Of a stretch of DNA of 21,352 bases, positions 2,526 through 19,885 are shown piece after piece. Every line of letters starts with the position of its first letter. Position 1 is the first letter of the stretch. Under the pieces are notes generated by a model. The model did not search any database. It was not told the origin of the DNA and saw only the letters and a list, made by a program, of their open reading frames with translations. Location: positions 1 through 21,352 of IMG/VR virus record IMGVR_UViG_3300031918_000166; one strand, written 5' to 3'. This DNA is from a virus. A program made the position numbers and the translations under genes.

Positions 2526-2894
2526 ATGTACATAATCAGAAAAAGTTTTGAATTTAGTGCCAAGCACGCTTTATCAGGATTGCCAGAAGGTCATCAATGT
2601 GCCCGTGATCATGGTCATAATTATGTAGTGACCGTGGAGTTATCTTCCACTTCTTTAAATGAAGTGGGTTTTGTGAAGGACTACGGTGAACTAAAACCAA
2701 TAAAGGAATACATTGATTCCACATTCGATCATCGCGATTTGAATGCCATTTTTACTTTTAATCCTACTGCCGAAAATATGGCAAAATTCTTTTTTGAATA
2801 TTTTCGATCGGTCTTAGGATTTAAACAACTAAGAGCGGTAGATGTATCGGAAACTCCAAAAACAGTATCTCGTTATACTCCTGATTATGATTAA
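2526..2894 (+). CDS. queD: QueD, 6-carboxy-5,6,7,8-tetrahydropterin synthase
   Basis: This 122-residue protein has the full signature of the 6-pyruvoyl-tetrahydropterin synthase fold. The zinc ligands are H14 (AKHAL) and H29/H31 (HGHNY), the catalytic Cys is C25, FDHRDLN supplies D68/H69, and the C-terminal E109 lies in SETP, where the pterin is bound. QueD converts 7,8-dihydroneopterin triphosphate from FolE to 6-carboxytetrahydropterin. The length is normal for bacterial QueD. It overlaps queE by 8 nt, and queC and folE follow, so it acts in the preQ0 pathway rather than in biopterin synthesis. There is no Shine-Dalgarno; the start is preceded by an AT-rich stretch. Confidence 0.93.
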   Translation: MYIIRKSFEFSAKHALSGLPEGHQCARDHGHNYVVTVELSSTSLNEVGFVKDYGELKPIKEYIDSTFDHRDLNAIFTFNPTAENMAKFFFEYFRSVLGFKQLRAVDVSETPKTVSRYTPDYD

Positions 2895-3663
2895 GCAAAT
2901 CATCACCGCATTCCCGGATTTTAGAAAAACGGTGCCTGTTGATGAACCATTCCTTAATATCTCAGAATTTTTCTGTGATACTATACAAGGGGAAGGAATC
3001 AATATAGGTCACCCAGCAGCATTTTTGCGGCTTCAAAATTGCAGTCTTAATTGCTGGTATTGTGATACGGAAGAAGTCTGGAGAAAAGGCAATCCCTATA
3101 CCTTTACTGAATTATTTGATTTAATGGATCAAGCGGATTTGCCTCGTAAATTACAAGAAGGCCAGCATTTGGTATTAACCGGTGGAAGTCCATTACTGCA
3201 ACAAGAGGGGCTTTGTAATTTTATTAATACATTTCTCACTTTGTATGATTTTAAACCTTATATTGAAATTGAGAATGAATGTGCAGTTTTTCCTAAACGG
3301 GATCCAATGGAATCTGATATTATTGATTTGGTTGATTGTTGGAATAATTCACCAAAATTATCAGGTAGTGGTAATCCCACCTCTCTTCGATATCAACCGA
3401 AAATATTAAAGCAAATGTCTTCTCTTTGTAACAGTTGGTTTAAAATTGTAGTCGGACCGGAAACAAGATGGCAGGAAATTGAAGAGAAGTATCTTACTCC
3501 AAAATTGATTGAACGTAGTCAAATTATTCTTATGCCTCAAGGAGCGACAAGAGCAGAACTGGAAGACAATAGGGAAATGGTTCTTGTTATGGCAATTGAG
3601 CATGGGGTGAGGTATTGTACCAGAGAGCATATTGTCCTTTGGGATAAGAAGACAGGGGTTTAA
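2887..3663 (+). CDS. queE: QueE, 7-carboxy-7-deazaguanine synthase (radical SAM)
   Basis: A 258-residue protein. I chose the ATG at 2887 because the N-terminus then runs into the conserved FFCDTIQGEG (residues 28-37). An ATG at 2842 exists but lies deep inside queD. The radical SAM cluster motif is CSLNCWYC (C52, C56, C59), the CX3CX2C form of QueE, followed by DT. The SAM-binding motif usually written GGEP reads TGGSPLL here, with Ser101 in place of Glu. QueE rearranges 6-carboxytetrahydropterin into 7-carboxy-7-deazaguanine. It is overlapped with queD and so probably translationally coupled. The rest of the protein, including the C-terminal region, is complete. Confidence 0.92.
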   Translation: MIKQIITAFPDFRKTVPVDEPFLNISEFFCDTIQGEGINIGHPAAFLRLQNCSLNCWYCDTEEVWRKGNPYTFTELFDLMDQADLPRKLQEGQHLVLTGGSPLLQQEGLCNFINTFLTLYDFKPYIEIENECAVFPKRDPMESDIIDLVDCWNNSPKLSGSGNPTSLRYQPKILKQMSSLCNSWFKIVVGPETRWQEIEEKYLTPKLIERSQIILMPQGATRAELEDNREMVLVMAIEHGVRYCTREHIVLWDKKTGV

Positions 3664-3839
3664 TTATACCTGTCTGGGTATTATGATAATAAGGGGTAAA
3701 TTTATTGATTTATTTGATGTAATAATGATGTAAAAGCCCTTTATTAAAAAAATTAATCGTATAATAGATTGTTAGAAAATTAATCATTATTTTTATAGTT
3801 TATTTTTAGTTATTTACAAATTTTTAATTTTATTAAGTT
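3664..3839 (+). promoter_or_regulatory. Intergenic regulatory region upstream of the acidic winged-helix gene
   Basis: A 176-nt non-coding, very AT-rich stretch, the longest gap in the window. It contains a TATAAT hexamer (3760-3765) inside a 23-bp segment (3748-3770) that recurs exactly at 16042-16064. It also holds an imperfect inverted repeat, AATAAGGG (near 3690) with CCCTTTATT (3737-3745). A short hairpin ACAGG/CCTGT at the queE end has no T-run. It is probably the promoter and 5' leader of the next gene, which also has its own terminator. Confidence 0.5.
3748..3770 (+). repeat. 23-bp direct repeat with TATAAT, copy 1
   Basis: This 23-bp segment, core ATTAATCGTATAATAGATT, is identical to 16042-16064. 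Both copies lie in non-coding gaps. The TATAAT and conserved flanks suggest a phage promoter or regulator site. A short dyad (AATC...GATT) frames the hexamer. No clear -35 box is seen. Confidence 0.6.
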
Positions 3840-4670
3840 ATGTCCACTCAAAAAGAATTGAAGAAAGCAATTGTTGAATTGAATGATCTACTTGGTTTGG
3901 ATCCACAGGTTGATCCAAAGGGTTCTGAAAAGGAATTGATGAAAGGTATTAAAGCGGCATTAAAATTGATCACTCCAGCCGATACATTTTCTGCCGGCAC
4001 GCAAGCGGTTCTTGATGAAATAAAACCTCCAGTTGTAAAAGCAGCGGCTCCTGCAAAAGGTAAAAAAGCTCCGGTGGTTGTTGAGGACGACGAGGATGAA
4101 GATGAAGACGACGACGAAGACGCCGATGAAGACGACGACGACGAAGAGGAAGAAGAGGAGGAAGAAATTCCTGCTCCTAAAGCAAAAGGCAAAAAGCCTG
4201 TAGCTCCTGCTCCTGCCCCTAAAGCAAAAGGCAAAAAGGCACCTGTCGTTGTTGAAGACGATGACGATGATGAAGAGGAGGAGGAGGAGGAAATTCCTGC
4301 ACCGAAAGCCAAAAAAGGTAAAAAAGCCCCTATCGTTGTTGAAGAGGACGATGAAGAGGAGGAAGAAAAACCTAAAGCCAAAAAAAGCAAAAAGGAAGAA
4401 GCTGCCCCCAAAACCAAAAAGACAAAAGAAGAAATCTTCAAAGGTCCCGGCATCATTAAAACCATTGTTGACCTACTGGAAAAATCCGGAAAAAAGGGAT
4501 TATCCATTGAAGAAATTCACGCCCATTTGGTTGCCAACTTTCCTGACCGCGATTCGAAAAGCATGCTGAATACGGTTCGCGTACAAGTACCTGGTCGAAT
4601 TTCAAAAGAAAAATTTGAACTCGAAAAGTTATCCACCGGAAATTTCCGCAAAAAGGTAGCGAAAGCGTAA
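3840..4670 (+). CDS. Acidic/basic low-complexity protein with C-terminal winged-helix (HARE-like) domain
   Basis: A 276-residue protein in three parts. Residues 1-65 are a helical N-terminal domain. Residues ~72-190 are alternating Lys/Ala/Pro-rich and Asp/Glu-rich blocks built on a repeated GKKAPVVVEDD unit (about residues 74, 131 and 160). Residues ~197-274 are a compact domain (FKGPGIIKTIVDLLEKSGKK then LSIEEIHAHL) resembling HARE-HTH or RNA polymerase delta-type winged helices. The layout suggests a DNA- or RNA-polymerase-associated chromatin-like protein, but no function is proven. It is a separate transcription unit: a leader with a promoter-like repeat upstream and a strong terminator downstream, set between queE and queC. 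Its base composition is GC-richer than its neighbours because of GAC/GAG/GAA repeats. The long complementary-strand open frame is an artefact of these repeats. Confidence 0.8.
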   Translation: MSTQKELKKAIVELNDLLGLDPQVDPKGSEKELMKGIKAALKLITPADTFSAGTQAVLDEIKPPVVKAAAPAKGKKAPVVVEDDEDEDEDDDEDADEDDDDEEEEEEEEIPAPKAKGKKPVAPAPAPKAKGKKAPVVVEDDDDDEEEEEEEIPAPKAKKGKKAPIVVEEDDEEEEEKPKAKKSKKEEAAPKTKKTKEEIFKGPGIIKTIVDLLEKSGKKGLSIEEIHAHLVANFPDRDSKSMLNTVRVQVPGRISKEKFELEKLSTGNFRKKVAKA

Positions 4671-4698
4671 TTTTATCTTTTATCTTTTTTACTGATTC

Positions 4699-4739
4699 AA
4701 AAAGCATTTCTGATATATCCTTATTAGAAATGCTTTTTT
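4699..4739 (+). terminator. Rho-independent terminator after the winged-helix gene
   Basis: The arms AAAAGCATTTCT (4700-4711) and AGAAATGCTTTT (4726-4737) are perfectly complementary over at least 12 bp. They enclose a 14-nt AT-rich loop and end in a run of six T. The hairpin lies 29 nt after the stop codon and before queC, so it should stop transcription of the acidic protein gene. Confidence 0.88.
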
Positions 4740-4753
4740 AAAATTATATCAAT

Positions 4754-5491
4754 ATGAAAAAAGTAGTTATGGGATTAAGTGGGGGTATGGATTCTACCAC
4801 CTTACTTGCAATCCTTTTGGATGACGGTTATGACGTCCATTGTTGCTCCTTTACATATGGTTCCAAACATAATGCCTATGAAGGAAAAGCAGCAGAAAAT
4901 ATTATAAAATATTACAAAGAACAAGGGTTACCTGTTACCCATTATCAAATTGATTTAACAGGAGCGTTTACTCACTTTCAATCAGACCTACTCAAAACTG
5001 GAGGAGCTATTCCGGAAGGACATTATGATGGGGAAAACATGAGATCAACCGTCGTACCGGGACGCAATATGATAATGGCGTCAATTATGGCAGGGCTTGC
5101 AGAATCTATTGGTGCAGAATCTATTGCATTAGGAGTGCACGCAGGTGATCACCATATCTACCCAGATTGTCGAAAAGAATTTATTAAAGCATTTGACTCG
5201 GCTGTCTATTTATCGTCTGATCGTAAAGTTTCTGTACTCACTCCTTTAATTGATGATGACAAAGCAAGTATTTTAATTAAAGGATTTAATATAGAAACCG
5301 AGGATACATTGGTTCCTTATGATCTTACGCGAACTTGTTATGCCGATCAGGAATTGTCATGTGGAAAATGTGGTAGCTGTATTGAGCGGATACTTGCTTT
5401 TAATGCAGTTGGTTGGTGTGATCCTATTGATTATGAACTTTGCTGGGGAGACGTATTAGAAAATGCACTAAAATTAAACTCAGAAAAATAA
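4754..5491 (+). CDS. queC: QueC, 7-cyano-7-deazaguanine (preQ0) synthase
   Basis: A 245-residue protein with the PP-loop SGGMDST (residues 9-15), the QueC signature VPGRNMI (101-107), HAGDHHIYPDCR (129-140), and a C-terminal zinc site made by C195 and SCGKCGSC (C203, C206, C209). QueC uses ATP and ammonia to convert 7-carboxy-7-deazaguanine to preQ0. The length is close to bacterial QueC and there is no fused amidotransferase domain, unlike the GAT-QueC proteins that make formamidine derivatives. The gene follows a terminator, so it may have its own promoter in the 82-nt gap, although no clear one is seen. folE starts one base after its stop. Confidence 0.94.
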   Translation: MKKVVMGLSGGMDSTTLLAILLDDGYDVHCCSFTYGSKHNAYEGKAAENIIKYYKEQGLPVTHYQIDLTGAFTHFQSDLLKTGGAIPEGHYDGENMRSTVVPGRNMIMASIMAGLAESIGAESIALGVHAGDHHIYPDCRKEFIKAFDSAVYLSSDRKVSVLTPLIDDDKASILIKGFNIETEDTLVPYDLTRTCYADQELSCGKCGSCIERILAFNAVGWCDPIDYELCWGDVLENALKLNSEK

Positions 5492-5492
5492 A

Positions 5493-6377
5493 ATGCAAAA
5501 AAAGTATGTTACTTGGACGGAAATATTCCGTCGATTAAAGTGTATTGATAAACCTGGAAATATTGTATACGGTATTCCTAAAGGGGGAATGATTGCCGCT
5601 GGGTTTCTACAAAACGCAGAAGTAACCCATGAGCCAGCGATTGCCACTGTCATATTGGATGATATTTGTGATTCAGGTAAGACCATGCTGCATTACATGA
5701 ACAATCTTCCATACATTAAAGAGCGTCAATTTTATGCTTTATTTGATAAAAACTCAAGTAAGGATGATCAGCAATTTTGTGAAGGGGCTTGGCTTGTATT
5801 TCCTTGGGAAAAAGATCATCCTGCAGGAGAAGATACCATCCAACAAAACATTATTCGGCAATTGCAATATATTGGGGAAGACGTTACCAGAGAAGGTCTT
5901 TTAGATACTCCTAATAGAGTAGTTAAAAGTTGGGGTAAGATATTTGAGGGGTACACCAAAAAACCTGAGGATATTCTTACTACTTTTGAGGTAGGTGATT
6001 ATGATCAAATTGTTCTTTTAAAGAATATTGAATTTTCTTCGATGTGTGAGCATCATATGTTGCCATTCTTTGGCAAAGCACACGTTGCATATCTTCCATC
6101 AACCAAAATCATTGGTATTTCAAAACTTGCCCGTCTTATTGACATTTATTCTCGGAGATTACAAATCCAAGAGCGTATTGGTGAGCAAGTGACCAAAGAT
6201 TTAATGGATTTACTTAATGCTCGGGGAGCGGCTTGTATTATAGAAGCTCAGCATTTATGTATGAAAGCAAGAGGAGTGGAAAAACAAAGCTCAGTAATGG
6301 TTACCTCAAGTATGAAAGGTGTTTTTCTTGATAATCCTATTGCCCGTCAGGAACTTTTAGCATTAATCGGAAAATAA
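5493..6377 (+). CDS. folE: Phosphoribosyltransferase-like / GTP cyclohydrolase I fusion (FolE)
   Basis: A 294-residue protein with two domains. Residues ~112-294 are a GTP cyclohydrolase I: zinc ligands in CEHHMLPFFGKAHVAYLP (C185, H188) and C256 in QHLCMKARGVE, plus GISKLARLI and the QERIG segment. It makes dihydroneopterin triphosphate from GTP, the first step to preQ0. Residues 1-~108 resemble xanthine-guanine phosphoribosyltransferase: YVTW near the start, YGIPKGGMIAAG, the PRPP loop ILDDICDSGKT (54-64) and WLVFPWE (100-106). This domain is shorter than a free XGPRT (about 150 residues), mainly between the PKGG loop and the PRPP loop. The fusion is continuous, with no frameshift. It may supply or salvage a purine for the pathway; that role is inference. 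The FolE assignment is firm. Confidence 0.93.
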   Translation: MQKKYVTWTEIFRRLKCIDKPGNIVYGIPKGGMIAAGFLQNAEVTHEPAIATVILDDICDSGKTMLHYMNNLPYIKERQFYALFDKNSSKDDQQFCEGAWLVFPWEKDHPAGEDTIQQNIIRQLQYIGEDVTREGLLDTPNRVVKSWGKIFEGYTKKPEDILTTFEVGDYDQIVLLKNIEFSSMCEHHMLPFFGKAHVAYLPSTKIIGISKLARLIDIYSRRLQIQERIGEQVTKDLMDLLNARGAACIIEAQHLCMKARGVEKQSSVMVTSSMKGVFLDNPIARQELLALIGK

Positions 6378-6378
6378 A

Positions 6379-6642
6379 ATGAAAACAATTTACAAATACC
6401 CTCTTCTTATTGAGGGTAAGCAGGATGTTGAAATGCCAATGGGGGCTACTATACTATCACTCCAAATGCAAAGTGGTATTCCATGTGTATGGGCTTTGGT
6501 TGATACTGATAATAATGGTATTCATAATAGACGTTTTCGTACATTCGGTACGGGGCACCCTATTCCAGAGGAATTAAAATTAGTGTATATTGACACTTAT
6601 CAAAAAGGGGGCTGTGTTTTCCATTTATTTGAAGAAATATAA
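6379..6642 (+). CDS. Small conserved phage protein (DUF7352-like)
   Basis: An 87-residue protein starting one base after folE. It has features of a small family common in phages and bacteria: an N-terminal KYPLLIEGKQDVEMPMGA, then a GIPCVWALVD segment, and RRFRTFGTGHPI near the end. I associate this with a domain of unknown function, probably DUF7352, but cannot search. It is predicted to be a small beta-rich fold. It is not known to act in base modification; it sits between folE and dpdA and is probably cotranscribed. Confidence 0.7.
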   Translation: MKTIYKYPLLIEGKQDVEMPMGATILSLQMQSGIPCVWALVDTDNNGIHNRRFRTFGTGHPIPEELKLVYIDTYQKGGCVFHLFEEI

Positions 6643-6643
6643 A

Positions 6644-7687
6644 ATGAATGTCTATTTAGCCGGCAATTCTCAATACCAAAGTATTTGGGTTTATATTGCC
6701 CAAAAGCATACAAAAGCCCTATTATCGTATCATTACGTCGAAAATGAAGGTAGACCCTTCTGGAAAAGAACAATTAAAGCCATGATTAAAGCAAACAAAA
6801 AAGTAAATCTCTTTTTAGATTCAGGGGCATTCTCTGCCAAATCACAAGGAGTAGAAATTAATTTGGAAGAGTACATTGCTTTCATTAAAGCAAATAAGCC
6901 TTACCTGCAGGTCTATGCTAATTTAGATGTAATTGGAGATGCCCGAGCTACTTGGAAAAATCAAATGATCATGGAGGAGGCCGGTTTAAAGCCTCTTCCA
7001 TGTTTTCATTATAACGAAGATGAAAAGTGGTTAAAAAAGTATCTGGATAAGGGCTATCCCTACATTGCATTAGGAGGTATGGTTGGCGTACCAAGTACCC
7101 AACTAAAACAATGGTGTGATCGTATTTGGAAAAATCATCTTTGTGATGAAAATGGGATGCCTAAAATTAAAGTCCATGGATTTGGTCTAACCAGTCTTAA
7201 ACTAATGTTAAGGTATCCTTGGTATAGTGTTGATAGTACTTCATGGGTGGTTACCGGACGTATGGGATCCATTTATGTCCCATCCTATAAAGACGGAAAA
7301 TGGATTTATGACGAGCAGTCTTTAAAAATTGCTGTATCTAATAAAAGCCCTAATTTAAAAGAAGCCGGTCAGCATATATCCACATTACCTATAAAAATGC
7401 AAAACATTATTCTTAATTATATTCATGATAAAGGATATGTATTAGGAGTATCAGAATATAAAAAGGAAAATCAGACTTACGAACTAAAAGAGAATGAAAA
7501 ATGGTCTGAGAAAAAACCAAGTAATGCAAAAGAAAAGCGTGAGGTAGAAATTATTTTGGAAGAAGGTATTTCCAATCGCTACCAATTAAGAGATGAAATG
7601 AATATTATTTATTTTATGGATCTTGAAAAATCAATGCCTGTTTATCCATGGGCATTTAAAAAAGGACAAAATGGTCTCTTCTACTAA
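6644..7687 (+). CDS. dpdA: DpdA-like DNA 7-deazaguanine transglycosylase
   Basis: A 347-residue protein. I chose the ATG at 6644, one base after the previous stop, because it gives the conserved MNVYLAG start. An ATG at 6590 is inside the previous gene. It resembles phage DpdA proteins, distant TIM-barrel relatives of tRNA-guanine transglycosylase: LFLDSGAFSAKSQG (D59), YANLDVIGD (91-99), PCFHYNED, ALGGMVG, HGFGLTS (178-184) and SVDSTSW (D197). D59 and D197 are candidates for the two catalytic Asp. The CXCXXC zinc site of bacterial TGT is absent, as in phage DpdA. It should replace guanine in DNA with a preQ0-derived base. Linkage to queD, queE, queC and folE strongly supports this. The C-terminal ~130 residues are less recognisable. 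Confidence 0.85.
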   Translation: MNVYLAGNSQYQSIWVYIAQKHTKALLSYHYVENEGRPFWKRTIKAMIKANKKVNLFLDSGAFSAKSQGVEINLEEYIAFIKANKPYLQVYANLDVIGDARATWKNQMIMEEAGLKPLPCFHYNEDEKWLKKYLDKGYPYIALGGMVGVPSTQLKQWCDRIWKNHLCDENGMPKIKVHGFGLTSLKLMLRYPWYSVDSTSWVVTGRMGSIYVPSYKDGKWIYDEQSLKIAVSNKSPNLKEAGQHISTLPIKMQNIILNYIHDKGYVLGVSEYKKENQTYELKENEKWSEKKPSNAKEKREVEIILEEGISNRYQLRDEMNIIYFMDLEKSMPVYPWAFKKGQNGLFY

Positions 7688-16068: not shown

Positions 16069-16263
16069 ATGACTCATTTAGAATTTTTATCAGAATATCA
16101 AAAGAGCATTACGCCTTATATGTCCGTGGAAGATTATGTCAAACAAAGTAATTATGTAGATATAATGGCATATATTGATTGGTTAGAAACCAAATTAAAC
16201 GATGAACTTTTAAAAAATAGTACTAATTTAAAAAGAACAAAATGGATTATGCAAAAGACATAA
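16069..16263 (+). CDS. Small hypothetical protein
   Basis: A 64-residue protein just downstream of the TATAAT repeat. It is helical, with DYVKQSNYVDIMAYIDWLET and a Lys/Asn-rich tail. The next gene overlaps by 22 nt. No motif is recognised. It would be the first gene of a transcript that includes the ssDNA-binding protein and recombinase genes. Confidence 0.55.
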   Translation: MTHLEFLSEYQKSITPYMSVEDYVKQSNYVDIMAYIDWLETKLNDELLKNSTNLKRTKWIMQKT

Positions 16264-16733
16264 TAATTGATGAAGAGGCCTTGGATAAGGAGTGGTTGAG
16301 GCAACCGGCATTAATGATGAAATATGCCAAGCATTCCGCTCGTATGCAAAACGCTTTAGAAGAAGCTAAACAAGAATTGGACATTGCAAGAGCTGAAGCC
16401 GATAGAACAATACGAGAAAATCCAAAAGGCTTTGATATCCCTGATCGAGTAACGGAAGGTGCTATCTCAAGTGCTATATTAACATATAAGCCATATATAG
16501 AAGCCTCAAAAGCTTTTTTAGATGCCAAGTATGAAGCCGACATGGCAAAAGCTGCCGTTAATGCTTTTGAACATCGCAAATCAGCATTAGAAAATTTAGT
16601 CCGGTTATATGGACAACAATATTTTGCCGGACCATCTGTCCCATATCAAATTAACAGAGAATGGGAAGCAAAAGAAAAGGACAAAAGAGTATCAAAGAAA
16701 ATAAGTGAAGGTATGCAAAGGAGGCGGAAATAA
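16242..16733 (+). CDS. Helical protein, possible recombination mediator (UvsY-like position)
   Basis: A 163-residue, almost entirely helical protein. It begins with an acidic segment (IIIDEEALDKEWLRQP) followed by a long helical hairpin (MQNALEEAKQELDIARAEAD and KAFLDAKYEADMAKAAVNAF), then ALENLVRLYGQQYFAGPSVP. This architecture is seen in a conserved phage family located near ssDNA-binding and RecA-like genes. By position and fold it might be a UvsY-like mediator that helps load recombinase on SSB-coated DNA. The similarity is architectural, not proven. Confidence 0.6.
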   Translation: MDYAKDIIIDEEALDKEWLRQPALMMKYAKHSARMQNALEEAKQELDIARAEADRTIRENPKGFDIPDRVTEGAISSAILTYKPYIEASKAFLDAKYEADMAKAAVNAFEHRKSALENLVRLYGQQYFAGPSVPYQINREWEAKEKDKRVSKKISEGMQRRRK

Positions 16734-17005: not shown

Positions 17006-18433
17006 ATGAAGACCAAAAAATTCAGTTTCAAAGGGAAGGTTAACAAAGCCTCCAAGAAAAAAGCACAAGAGCGTTCCAGTTATGGCTATTTAGCATTACC
17101 AAGCAATGTTCATGTATTTGCTCCGGAATGTGACTCTCGTGTATCTTTGGATTTTTTACCGTATAAGGTAACAAGTTCAAATCATCCTGACAAAGATGAA
17201 AGTGATGGTACCGCGGTAAAAGGTTCCTATTGGTATCGTCTACCATTTAAAATTCACCGTAATGTTGGGGCAGGTGGTAATCAGACAACAGTGGTCTGCC
17301 CTACATCATTTGGTAAGAAATGTCCTATCTGTGAGTACAGAATGAAAAAGGTCGCTGAAAAAGCTGACAAAGATGAAATTAAAGCATTAAATGCTTCTGA
17401 TCGGTATTTATATGTAATTAATCCTTTGGATAGTGCAAAACATGAAAAAGGAAAATGGCATATTTTTGACATTTCTCATGCAATGCTCCAAAAATTATTA
17501 GATGATGAACTGGATGAAGGTTCTGTATCTGAAAGTTTTATGGACCTTGAAGAAGGACAGACTTTAAAAATTCGTTTTACAGGAAAAACTATTGGCAGTA
17601 GTAAACCGTTCCCGGAGGCTACCAAAATAACATCCGTTGAAAGGGCAAAACCATACAAAGAGACTGTTGCTGATGAAACCCCGAAATTGGATGATGTTCT
17701 TATTGTTTTGTCTTATTCAGATTTGGAAAAGAAATTCTTCGAATTACCAGATGATGATGAAGAAGAGGAAGAAGCACCAAAGAAAAAGAAAAAGGCAGCC
17801 CCTATTGTGGAAGACGATGACGACGATGAAGAGGACGACGATGAAGAGGATGACGATGACGAGGAGGACGATGATGAAGAGGAGGAAGAAGCCCCTGTCG
17901 TTCGTAGTAAGAAAAAAGTGACCCCAGCTCCTACTAAAGGGAAAGGTAAAAAAGCCCCTGTTGTGGAAGAGGATGAAGACGAAGACGAGGAGGATGACGA
18001 CGAGGAAGAAGAGGAAATTGTCTACTCCTGGGAGGATATTTCTAAAATGAAACATGTTCAGCTCATTGATTTAGCAGAGACTGCCGGAATTGAAGCCTCC
18101 GATTATGATGACGATATAAAGGCACTGCGTAGGGCAATAGCCGTATCTATGGGAATTAAAATCCCAAAAACTACAGCGGCTGCTCCAGTAACAAAAGAAG
18201 CACCCAAGAAAAAGAAAAAACCAGTAGTGGTGGAAGATGATGACGAGGACGAGGACGAGGACGAAGATGAACCCGCGCCAGTAACCGTTTCAAAAAAGGG
18301 AGCTAAAAAAGCAGTAAAAAATGAATGCCCTTCCGGCTATCGTTTTGGCATTGATACTGATAAAAAAAAGGATTGCGAAGATTGTGATCTTTGGGATGAA
18401 TGTAGTGATGCTAAAAAGAAAAGGAAAAAGTAA
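17006..18433 (+). CDS. gp32-like ssDNA-binding protein with long acidic/basic tail
   Basis: A 475-residue protein. Residues 1-~215 resemble T4 gp32-type ssDNA-binding proteins: a basic start, YWYRLPFKIHRNVG, a zinc-binding CPTSFGKKCPIC (C98, C106, C109), and DRYLYVINPLDSAKHEKGK then FDISHAM. Residues ~247-335 and ~400-425 are Asp/Glu runs separated by Lys-rich KKAP units. Residues ~340-385 (SWEDISKMKHVQLIDLAETA) look like a SAP/HeH-type helical module. The end (CPSGYRFGID, then C457, C460, C466) is a second Cys cluster. Acidic tails of SSBs recruit replication proteins; here the tail is unusually long and multi-domain. It coats ssDNA during replication and recombination. Confidence 0.85.
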   Translation: MKTKKFSFKGKVNKASKKKAQERSSYGYLALPSNVHVFAPECDSRVSLDFLPYKVTSSNHPDKDESDGTAVKGSYWYRLPFKIHRNVGAGGNQTTVVCPTSFGKKCPICEYRMKKVAEKADKDEIKALNASDRYLYVINPLDSAKHEKGKWHIFDISHAMLQKLLDDELDEGSVSESFMDLEEGQTLKIRFTGKTIGSSKPFPEATKITSVERAKPYKETVADETPKLDDVLIVLSYSDLEKKFFELPDDDEEEEEAPKKKKKAAPIVEDDDDDEEDDDEEDDDDEEDDDEEEEEAPVVRSKKKVTPAPTKGKGKKAPVVEEDEDEDEEDDDEEEEEIVYSWEDISKMKHVQLIDLAETAGIEASDYDDDIKALRRAIAVSMGIKIPKTTAAAPVTKEAPKKKKKPVVVEDDDEDEDEDEDEPAPVTVSKKGAKKAVKNECPSGYRFGIDTDKKKDCEDCDLWDECSDAKKKRKK

Positions 18434-18846
18434 TGATTCTCAATCGGACTAAAGTTAAATTTACTGGAAATCCAATTAAATCTGATAAAATGATTAAACA
18501 TGTAGGGGCTTATATCCCCCTACGTGTTTTTTCTAATATTACGATTTATACTTTAGCAAAGAATTGGAATAAATCTAACATGGTATCCACCATATTAGAC
18601 CAATGGCTCTTAAGTAATTTTACTTCTGATATAGAGAAAGAATGTATCCAAATAGTAGCATCTAATATTTACAATTATTTTAAAGAGTTAAAAAGTACTC
18701 ATAAATCAACAATGTCATATGAGCAATTTATTCAAATGAGCATTAAGGAATTAGAGTATAAAGGTATTATTGCTATCACTATTAAATCCATTCTAAAAGA
18801 AATTGATTTTTTACACGAAATAAATAATCATGGAAAGACGAAATAA
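18433..18846 (+). CDS. Possible ribbon-helix-helix DNA-binding protein
   Basis: A 137-residue protein starting on the last base of the SSB stop. Residues 24-60 (VGAYIPLRVFSNITIYTLAK then NKSNMVSTILDQWL) look like a ribbon-helix-helix DNA-binding domain: a beta-strand followed by two helices with a Ser/Asn-rich turn. The C-terminal half is helical. If so, it may be a regulator of the surrounding genes. Codons ~22-33 contain a strong terminator-like hairpin, described separately. The end overlaps the recA start by 17 nt. The RHH assignment is by pattern only. Confidence 0.6.
   Translation: MILNRTKVKFTGNPIKSDKMIKHVGAYIPLRVFSNITIYTLAKNWNKSNMVSTILDQWLLSNFTSDIEKECIQIVASNIYNYFKELKSTHKSTMSYEQFIQMSIKELEYKGIIAITIKSILKEIDFLHEINNHGKTK
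18496..18532 (+). terminator. Terminator-like hairpin inside the RHH-like ORF
   Basis: The arms AAACATGTAGGGG (18496-18508) and CCCCTACGTGTTT (18517-18529) form a 13-bp stem with a single T-G wobble and an 8-nt loop, ending in TTTTTT (18527-18532). This is a textbook intrinsic terminator, 62 nt after the SSB stop but within the next reading frame. It may end most SSB transcripts and attenuate expression of the downstream regulator-recombinase genes. Confidence 0.7.
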
Positions 18847-19885
18847 TGGGACTCCCTCTTTAAGTGCTCAAATGAAAAGTAAAGTTAAAAATAAAAAAGT
18901 AGAAGAACAAAAAGCCCCTGACGGTAACTTTGATACCGTTATTAGCACCGGTTCTACTTTATTAGATTTAGCAATAAGTGGGGGAAGAAAAAAGGGAGGT
19001 GGTATTCCAGGAGGGGTCTTTGTGGAAATATTTGGACCATCTTCAGCTGGAAAAACAGTGCTCTTATGTGAGATTGCAGGTGATGTGCAAAGAAAGGGAG
19101 GTCAAGTTCGATTTGATGATCCGGAGGCACGTTTAAATACAACCTTTGCTCAGTTATTTGACTTAAACACAGATGATATTGAATATGCCACTCCTGATAA
19201 AGTGACCCAAGTTTTTGCAAATATCCGAGAATGGGAACCCATTAATAAAAATGTAATTAATGGTACGTTTACTGACTCATTAGCCGCTTTATCTACAGAT
19301 ATTGAAATGGATAATGATGATGGTGATAAAATGGGGATGCGTAGAGCAAAAGAATTTAGTGAGGGCTTCCGGAAAAACGCTCGTATTATTACCAAAAAGA
19401 ATTATATCATGGTTTGTAGTAATCAAGTCCGTGAAAATAGTGATGCCGGTAAATATGGAGTTAAGTATAAATCAACAGGTGGTTTTGCTATTGGGTTTTA
19501 TGCATCTTTAAGGCTTAGAGCAACTAATCCAGAAAAGATTTGGGTGGAAAAAACAGTAGCTGGAAAGAAAGTAAAACGTTGTATTGGGGTGGAAACTACT
19601 TTTGAAGTTTTTAAATCATCCATTTGGAAGCCATTTCATTCCGCCCCTGTAGCTATTATTTTTGATTACGGTATTGATGATATTCGCATGAATCTTCAAT
19701 ATGTAAAAGATTATACAAAAAATACAACTTATCAAGTACGGGATATTAAACTTTCCAACAGTATGGATGATTCCATTAAAATGGTTGAAGAACAAACACT
19801 TCAAAGAAAATTAAAACGGGAAGTAATTGAGCTTTGGGAAGAAATTGAATCAAAATTTGTAACAGAAAGGCAACCAAAAAGATGA
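18830..19885 (+). CDS. recA: RecA-like recombinase
   Basis: A 351-residue protein with the RecA/UvsX core. An N-terminal TVISTGSTLLDLAISGG precedes Walker A GPSSAGKT (69-76). RFDDPEARLN carries the catalytic Glu99 (equivalent to the DAEHALD region). The Walker B strand reads GTFTDSLAAL (D149). CSNQVRENSD followed by TGGFAIGFYASLRLR covers the DNA-binding loop 2 region. It should form filaments on ssDNA and promote strand exchange, with the SSB and the possible mediator encoded upstream. The C-terminal third is less conserved. The ATG at 18830 overlaps the preceding gene; a later ATG would drop the charged N-terminal tail but keep the core. Confidence 0.9.
   Translation: MERRNNGTPSLSAQMKSKVKNKKVEEQKAPDGNFDTVISTGSTLLDLAISGGRKKGGGIPGGVFVEIFGPSSAGKTVLLCEIAGDVQRKGGQVRFDDPEARLNTTFAQLFDLNTDDIEYATPDKVTQVFANIREWEPINKNVINGTFTDSLAALSTDIEMDNDDGDKMGMRRAKEFSEGFRKNARIITKKNYIMVCSNQVRENSDAGKYGVKYKSTGGFAIGFYASLRLRATNPEKIWVEKTVAGKKVKRCIGVETTFEVFKSSIWKPFHSAPVAIIFDYGIDDIRMNLQYVKDYTKNTTYQVRDIKLSNSMDDSIKMVEEQTLQRKLKREVIELWEEIESKFVTERQPKR

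Follow-up and report, generated by a model that had tools for sequence, protein, structure and literature searches.

What could a stable hairpin be doing within the early codons of a viral gene that lies between a gp32/SSB-like gene and a recA/UvsX-like recombinase gene? The question arises in a 21,352-nt stretch of viral DNA (IMG/VR record IMGVR_UViG_3300031918_000166, positions 1 to 21,352), which as a whole we call the window. Around the hairpin, a UvsY-like gene, a small ORF, the gp32/SSB-like gene, a gene for a ribbon-helix-helix (RHH) protein and the recA/UvsX-like gene follow one another (Table 1). The product of the gp32/SSB-like gene, hereafter ssb, is named as a putative SSB from its gene context and its resemblance; PHROG and Pfam searches of this product returned no SSB match. 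The RHH ORF shares its first base with the end of the ssb stop codon, and its own end overlaps recA by 17 bases. Two other contigs encode an identical RHH protein (100% identity), and among named phage records we found no near relative of the ssb-RHH-recA region, the recA matches there reaching at most about 32% identity. Three relatives of the ssb gene (L317, L318 and L319) sit in MAG bins that bear the labels Bacteroidota and Ignavibacteriales, which hints weakly at the hosts. Both the ssb gene (17700-18300) and the gene before queC (3840-4670) encode long poly-Asp/Glu, Lys-rich low-complexity tails, and similar tails are present in relatives. A search of the window for tRNA genes found none.

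Table 1. Features of the recombination locus in the window.
Feature	Position	Strand	Evidence and remarks
UvsY-like recombination mediator gene, weak match	16242..16733	+	phrog_231 4.5e-5, phrog_1069 1e-16; two genes upstream of ssb
gp32/SSB-like gene (putative), long acidic tail	17006..18433	+	CPxC-containing core conserved in relatives
RHH protein gene, 137 aa	18433..18846	+	homologs between ssb and recA; predicted N-terminal RHH and C-terminal three-helix part
RNA hairpin, 13-bp stem (one U-G), 8-nt loop	18496..18529	+	fold z, synonymous z, covariation in relatives
T6 run, hairpin 3' edge	18527..18532	+	first three T paired in stem; not conserved in relatives
recA/UvsX-like recombinase gene	18830..19885	+	phrog_97 UvsX-like 7e-44; PF00154 6e-33; overlaps RHH gene end

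The hairpin consists of the arms AAACATGTAGGGG and CCCCTACGTGTTT around the loop CTTATATC, with 12 Watson-Crick pairs and one U-G pair, and it occupies codons 22-33 of the RHH ORF (encoded peptide KHVGAYIPLRVF), 63-96 nt past the ssb stop codon. The minimum free energy of 18480-18545 is -24.4 kcal/mol against a shuffle mean of -8.66 (sd 2.6; z -6.05), with none of 200 shuffles folding as well. Synonymous resampling of the window copy gives a mean of -9.5 against the actual -23.9 (z -4.6, p 0.003), and since the hairpin is lost when the protein is kept, protein coding is not its explanation. Among the terminator-like sites of the window it is the strongest, by far the longest and the most G+C-rich. 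The preliminary description of this DNA, made from the letters, had placed a 13-bp stem, an 8-nt loop and a T6 run (18496-18532) in codons ~22-33 of an RHH gene just after ssb, and had added that the hairpin codes for conserved-looking residues of the RHH strand. All of this holds, with one of the pairs being G-U. A known RNA family was rejected, as Rfam gave no match for the hairpin, and so was a recurring sequence element, the core sequence being found only in the window phage and two same-sequence contigs. A literature search of partial coverage found no report of an ssb-RHH hairpin element.

The host ORF of the hairpin is a real gene, whose product is predicted to carry an N-terminal ribbon-helix-helix at about residues 20-63. 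The AlphaFold model, built from 55 aligned members, has a pLDDT of 87.8; residues 20-63 align with the solved RHH proteins CopG, NikR, Arc, AmrZ and HicB, and two family members match PF01402. In addition, the family profile matches 2kel in the PDB (E 0.003), which we take to be an SvtR-like RHH protein from a virus of archaea. The monomer model leaves the strand unassigned, and a PDB fold search with the whole protein returned nothing at E < 0.001; the evidence for an RHH protein therefore comes from the N-terminal domain. In the model the C-terminal half forms a bundle of helices that faintly resembles RecX (3e3v; PF02631 in two relatives). RecX is a regulator of RecA and the RHH gene adjoins recA, which makes a RecA-modulating role a candidate for this protein.

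Is the hairpin a peculiarity of one virus? Searches with recA and ssb, of which we took up to 80 matches each while several hundred further ssb/recA loci also matched, yielded at least 95 distinct middle proteins, 90 of them usable, and an RHH gene lies between a gp32-like ssb and recA in at least about 90 divergent uncultured phages. The first clue to conservation came from L005, whose RHH protein is 37-38% identical to that of the window: the same codons read ATTCGTAGGGG-TACATTTG-CCCCTACGAAT, which form a perfect 11-bp stem that differs in sequence from the window copy and has no U-run. When the stretch around the homologous Gly codon was resampled synonymously in all 90 relatives (300 resamples, each with the phage's own codon usage), the mean z was -3.2, with p<0.05 in 71 and p<0.01 in 61. 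A folding scan of ssb, RHH gene and recA in 50 representatives gave a single peak, at the hairpin codons (mean z -3.40, 72% below -2.5); all other windows of the three genes lay between -0.7 and +0.5, bar the one overlapping the peak.

The pairing is conserved to a degree that the individual bases are not. Over the 12 stem pairs of 87 representatives, which were not selected for the presence of a hairpin, Watson-Crick combinations number 609 where the synonymous null expects 414 (+15.5 sd), G-U combinations 144 against 158, A-C combinations 62 against 97 (-5.2 sd) and all others 229 against 375. Third codon positions in the stem track the partner base in the same set: opposite position 16, a partner G, T, A or C goes mostly with a third base C, A, T or G, respectively. 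All four Watson-Crick types occur at -1/+16 and three at -4/+19, and in 48 of the 87 the arms pair strongly in exactly one register. Similarly, an ungapped alignment of 61 sequences, chosen for the Gly...Pro pattern and so somewhat enriched, gives a covariation score of 0.374 against 0.194 when shuffled (reached in 0 of 500) and at most 0.18 when slid. The preliminary description would have been undermined by a protein that was kept while the pairing was lost; instead, the pairing is conserved through compensatory changes across some 90 phages. The hairpin is thus under selection at the RNA level, and strongly conserved.

To which gene does it belong? The dyad centre lies at a median of 62 nt from the ssb stop codon (10-90% range 51-82; 78.5 in the window), and the gaps between ssb and the RHH gene are mostly -8 to +6 nt. 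The hairpin is kept in none of the three lineages whose RHH gene lies away from ssb (L054/L055/L057, L074 and L317), against 68 of 85 in which the two are adjacent (Fisher p 0.010). In L074, a textbook terminator stands 18 nt after the displaced-RHH phage's ssb, and in L055 and L057 a tRNA gene lies 11 nt after it. ARAGORN assigns this tRNA (1312-1389) as tRNA-Ile AAT, directly after ssb at the usual place of the hairpin.

Phages that have no RHH gene at all bear on the same question. Four of them carry a hairpin in the gap after ssb (L033, L110, L185 and L320), and five carry one inside early recA codons (L012, L210, L232, L267 and L274), the one of L012 having 24 pairs and a z of -6.7. The best z in recA is lower in phages without the RHH gene than in those with it (p 0.0012). 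Part of the evidence from phages without the RHH gene is the best of many windows, and three of the loci (L213, L217 and L218) are near-identical. In five others (L008, L048, L061, L107 and L240) no clear hairpin follows ssb, which means that not every ssb has one. Taken together, these distributions suggest that the conserved feature is a hairpin shortly after ssb, with the RHH strand codons as its usual seat. They are moderate evidence, short of proof, that it is linked to ssb rather than to the RHH gene, and its tie to the 3' side of ssb appears stronger than any to recA. A general habit of placing such hairpins after abundant genes was not seen in a survey of 61 major-capsid loci, which showed no enrichment (18% vs 10-15%), making the ssb site special. 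Within five contigs, early-gene hairpins are in only mild excess over mid-gene ones (z < -5 in 9 vs 3 genes), and whole-contig scans found a few others, one of them after the capsid gene of G009. This last (L328 8247-8780, the gene after the major capsid gene) is an 11-bp hairpin at offset 72, and it is not conserved in the 61 capsid loci.

Several explanations can be set against these data. The simplest is that the hairpin arises by chance, or as a by-product of a conserved V-G-x-x-x-P motif of the protein combined with codon bias. The Gly and Pro residues do favour GG and CC doublets, on which the canonical hairpin depends (Fisher p 1.5e-5), but when codons are redrawn according to the usage of each phage the protein stays and the hairpin disappears, the base at third positions goes with its partner, and relatives without the Pro codon (L010, L037, L059 and L126) often have a strong hairpin displaced to a nearby place in the RHH ORF. 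Synonymous resampling rules this explanation out for the family, and we give it next to no weight. A DNA palindrome that serves as the operator of the RHH protein within its own gene would fit the supported RHH fold, as RHH proteins bind inverted repeats and the arms do form one, centred in the codons of the DNA-binding strand. The half-sites, however, are not conserved, as the full set of Watson-Crick types at a single stem position illustrates. Moreover, no difference between G-T and A-C would be expected at a double-stranded DNA site, whereas G-U is tolerated here and A-C avoided, an asymmetry that points to the hairpin acting as sense-strand RNA. Varying half-sites and this asymmetry make a DNA operator very improbable.

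If the element is RNA, the reading offered in the preliminary description deserves attention, namely a coupling-dependent intrinsic terminator: ribosomes on the RHH gene would keep the hairpin from folding, and without them hairpin and U-run would stop transcription before recA. The window copy does resemble an intrinsic (Rho-independent) terminator, with a stable G+C-rich stem and TTTTTTC right after it at 18527-18533; true intergenic hairpins with U-runs stand in the untranslated gaps after ssb in L033, L074 and L110, and T in the 8 nt past embedded stems is slightly above the null (3.81 vs 3.57; difference 0.24, se 0.09). Yet TTTT occurs within 11 nt of the stem in only 7 of 58 relatives, most coding-embedded ssb-RHH hairpins have no U-run, as in the perfect stem of L005, and the T-run of the window is what the codons V-F-S lead one to expect (T count 7 vs 6.1, p 0.23). 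Across the 58 relatives the U-run is not conserved along with the hairpin, so "intrinsic terminator" is unfit as a description of the family. The poly-T tail of the window copy appears mostly incidental, and this copy may still terminate. Of the preliminary description, the hairpin and its location in the RHH gene thus stood up, and the intrinsic terminator as stated did not; as a general account we consider it rather unlikely. Somewhat less likely again is an RNA operator, in which the RHH protein or SSB would bind the hairpin in its own message and repress translation of the RHH gene and recA. The hairpin lies within the RHH gene in most phages and is absent from RHH genes located elsewhere, and phage SSBs and polymerases control their own mRNAs (T4 gp32 and gp43; PMC3014915). 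Against it, no loop or stem sequence is conserved past what the codons impose, and the loops vary; the hairpin centre lies 43-137 nt after the start codon and leaves the ribosome-binding site uncovered, where an operator of the MS2 or gp43 type combines a structure at that site with a conserved loop; and hairpins follow ssb in phages without an RHH gene as well.

The explanation that we favour, with a probability of about one half, is that the hairpin is a 3'-end-forming or protecting element for the ssb mRNA and a translation-sensitive boundary to the RHH-recA segment, hidden at the start of the following ORF since the two genes abut. Transcription would continue from ssb through the RHH gene into recA. 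If translation of the RHH gene is not initiated, the hairpin would fold some 60-80 nt past the ssb stop codon and could halt 3'-5' exonucleases after downstream termination or cleavage; alternatively, it may help RNA polymerase to pause and stop. The outcome of folding would be a stable, ssb-rich mRNA, while on an RHH gene under translation the hairpin would be opened and RHH-recA expression could proceed. The U-run may add intrinsic termination in a minority of phages, the window included. The preliminary description's suggestion that translating ribosomes keep the hairpin open seems right to us, as an idea, and its further idea that they thereby set recA expression is a possibility. We infer 3'-end formation, exonuclease blocking or stabilisation, and an effect on ssb:recA expression ratios; the hairpin, its selection as RNA, its position, the lack of a U-run in most relatives and a partial tie to ssb adjacency are observed.

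Stable stem-loops of the REP/BIME type can protect the mRNA upstream of them against 3'-5' exonucleases and make expression within operons unequal. The phage hairpin is likewise a stable stem-loop and a candidate shield for the upstream mRNA, but REPs are repeated, intergenic and conserved in sequence, whereas the ssb-RHH hairpin is single-copy, lies inside an ORF and is conserved in its pairing. The closest measured parallel is the E-hairpin of Escherichia coli galE. It is located early in galT, some 130 nt past the galE stop codon, and forms the 3' end of galE mRNA as a barrier to 3'-5' exonucleases once failed initiation at galT has led to Rho-dependent termination (PMC9239205). In both cases the hairpin is found near the start of the downstream ORF, a short way past the stop codon of the upstream gene (dyad centre at a median of 62 nt here, 78.5 in the window), at a junction of a few nucleotides, the U-run is dispensable, and translation of the next gene would melt the structure. 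The two differ in that the 3' end, the exonuclease block and the Rho-dependent termination have been measured for galE, where the phage element is known from sequence, and in that the phage hairpin follows ssb and has its pairing conserved by covariation across a large phage group. The mRNA of T4 gene 32, which encodes the SSB of that phage, is the most stable T4 mRNA and also has special RNA structures and processing near its ends; the known element there is a 5' pseudoknot and RNase E sites rather than a hairpin in the next gene (PMC3014915). On the strength of the galE precedent and the stable T4 SSB mRNA we favour an ssb mRNA 3'-end hairpin.

Elsewhere in the window, positions 2526-7687 hold a complete-looking 7-deazaguanine cluster with PTPS/QueD, a radical-SAM QueE-like protein, QueC, a GTP cyclohydrolase I with an additional domain fused at its N-terminus and a DpdA-type gene resembling queuine tRNA-ribosyltransferase, which suggests that the phage DNA may contain modified guanines. 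Between the acidic-tail gene (3840-4670) and queC, an intergenic A/T-flanked hairpin with a T6 run stands at 4696-4741. At the same junction of G009 the gap is 15 nt, and a 12-bp hairpin lies inside queC (offset 42, z -6 to -7), a switch from gap to ORF that resembles the one seen after ssb.

To our knowledge, conserved RNA structure backed by covariation at synonymous sites has rarely been documented in phage coding sequence. Most of about 90 divergent phages keep the hairpin at the same codons, and the ssb-RHH hairpin makes, on evolutionary grounds, an unusually strong case for an RNA element within a phage ORF. It is tempting to speculate, as a possible if tentative extension, that a widespread and undescribed cis-acting RNA element, lying over the codons of the RHH DNA-binding strand, controls the ratio of SSB to RecA and serves as a feedback switch of the recombination module, one that ribosomes read and perhaps SSB or the RHH protein as well. 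The locus also offers a clear test case for how tightly packed phage operons achieve unequal expression, with much SSB and less recombinase. Finally, our results suggest that 3'-end hairpins may hide in the start of the next ORF, where they would escape scans for intergenic terminators.
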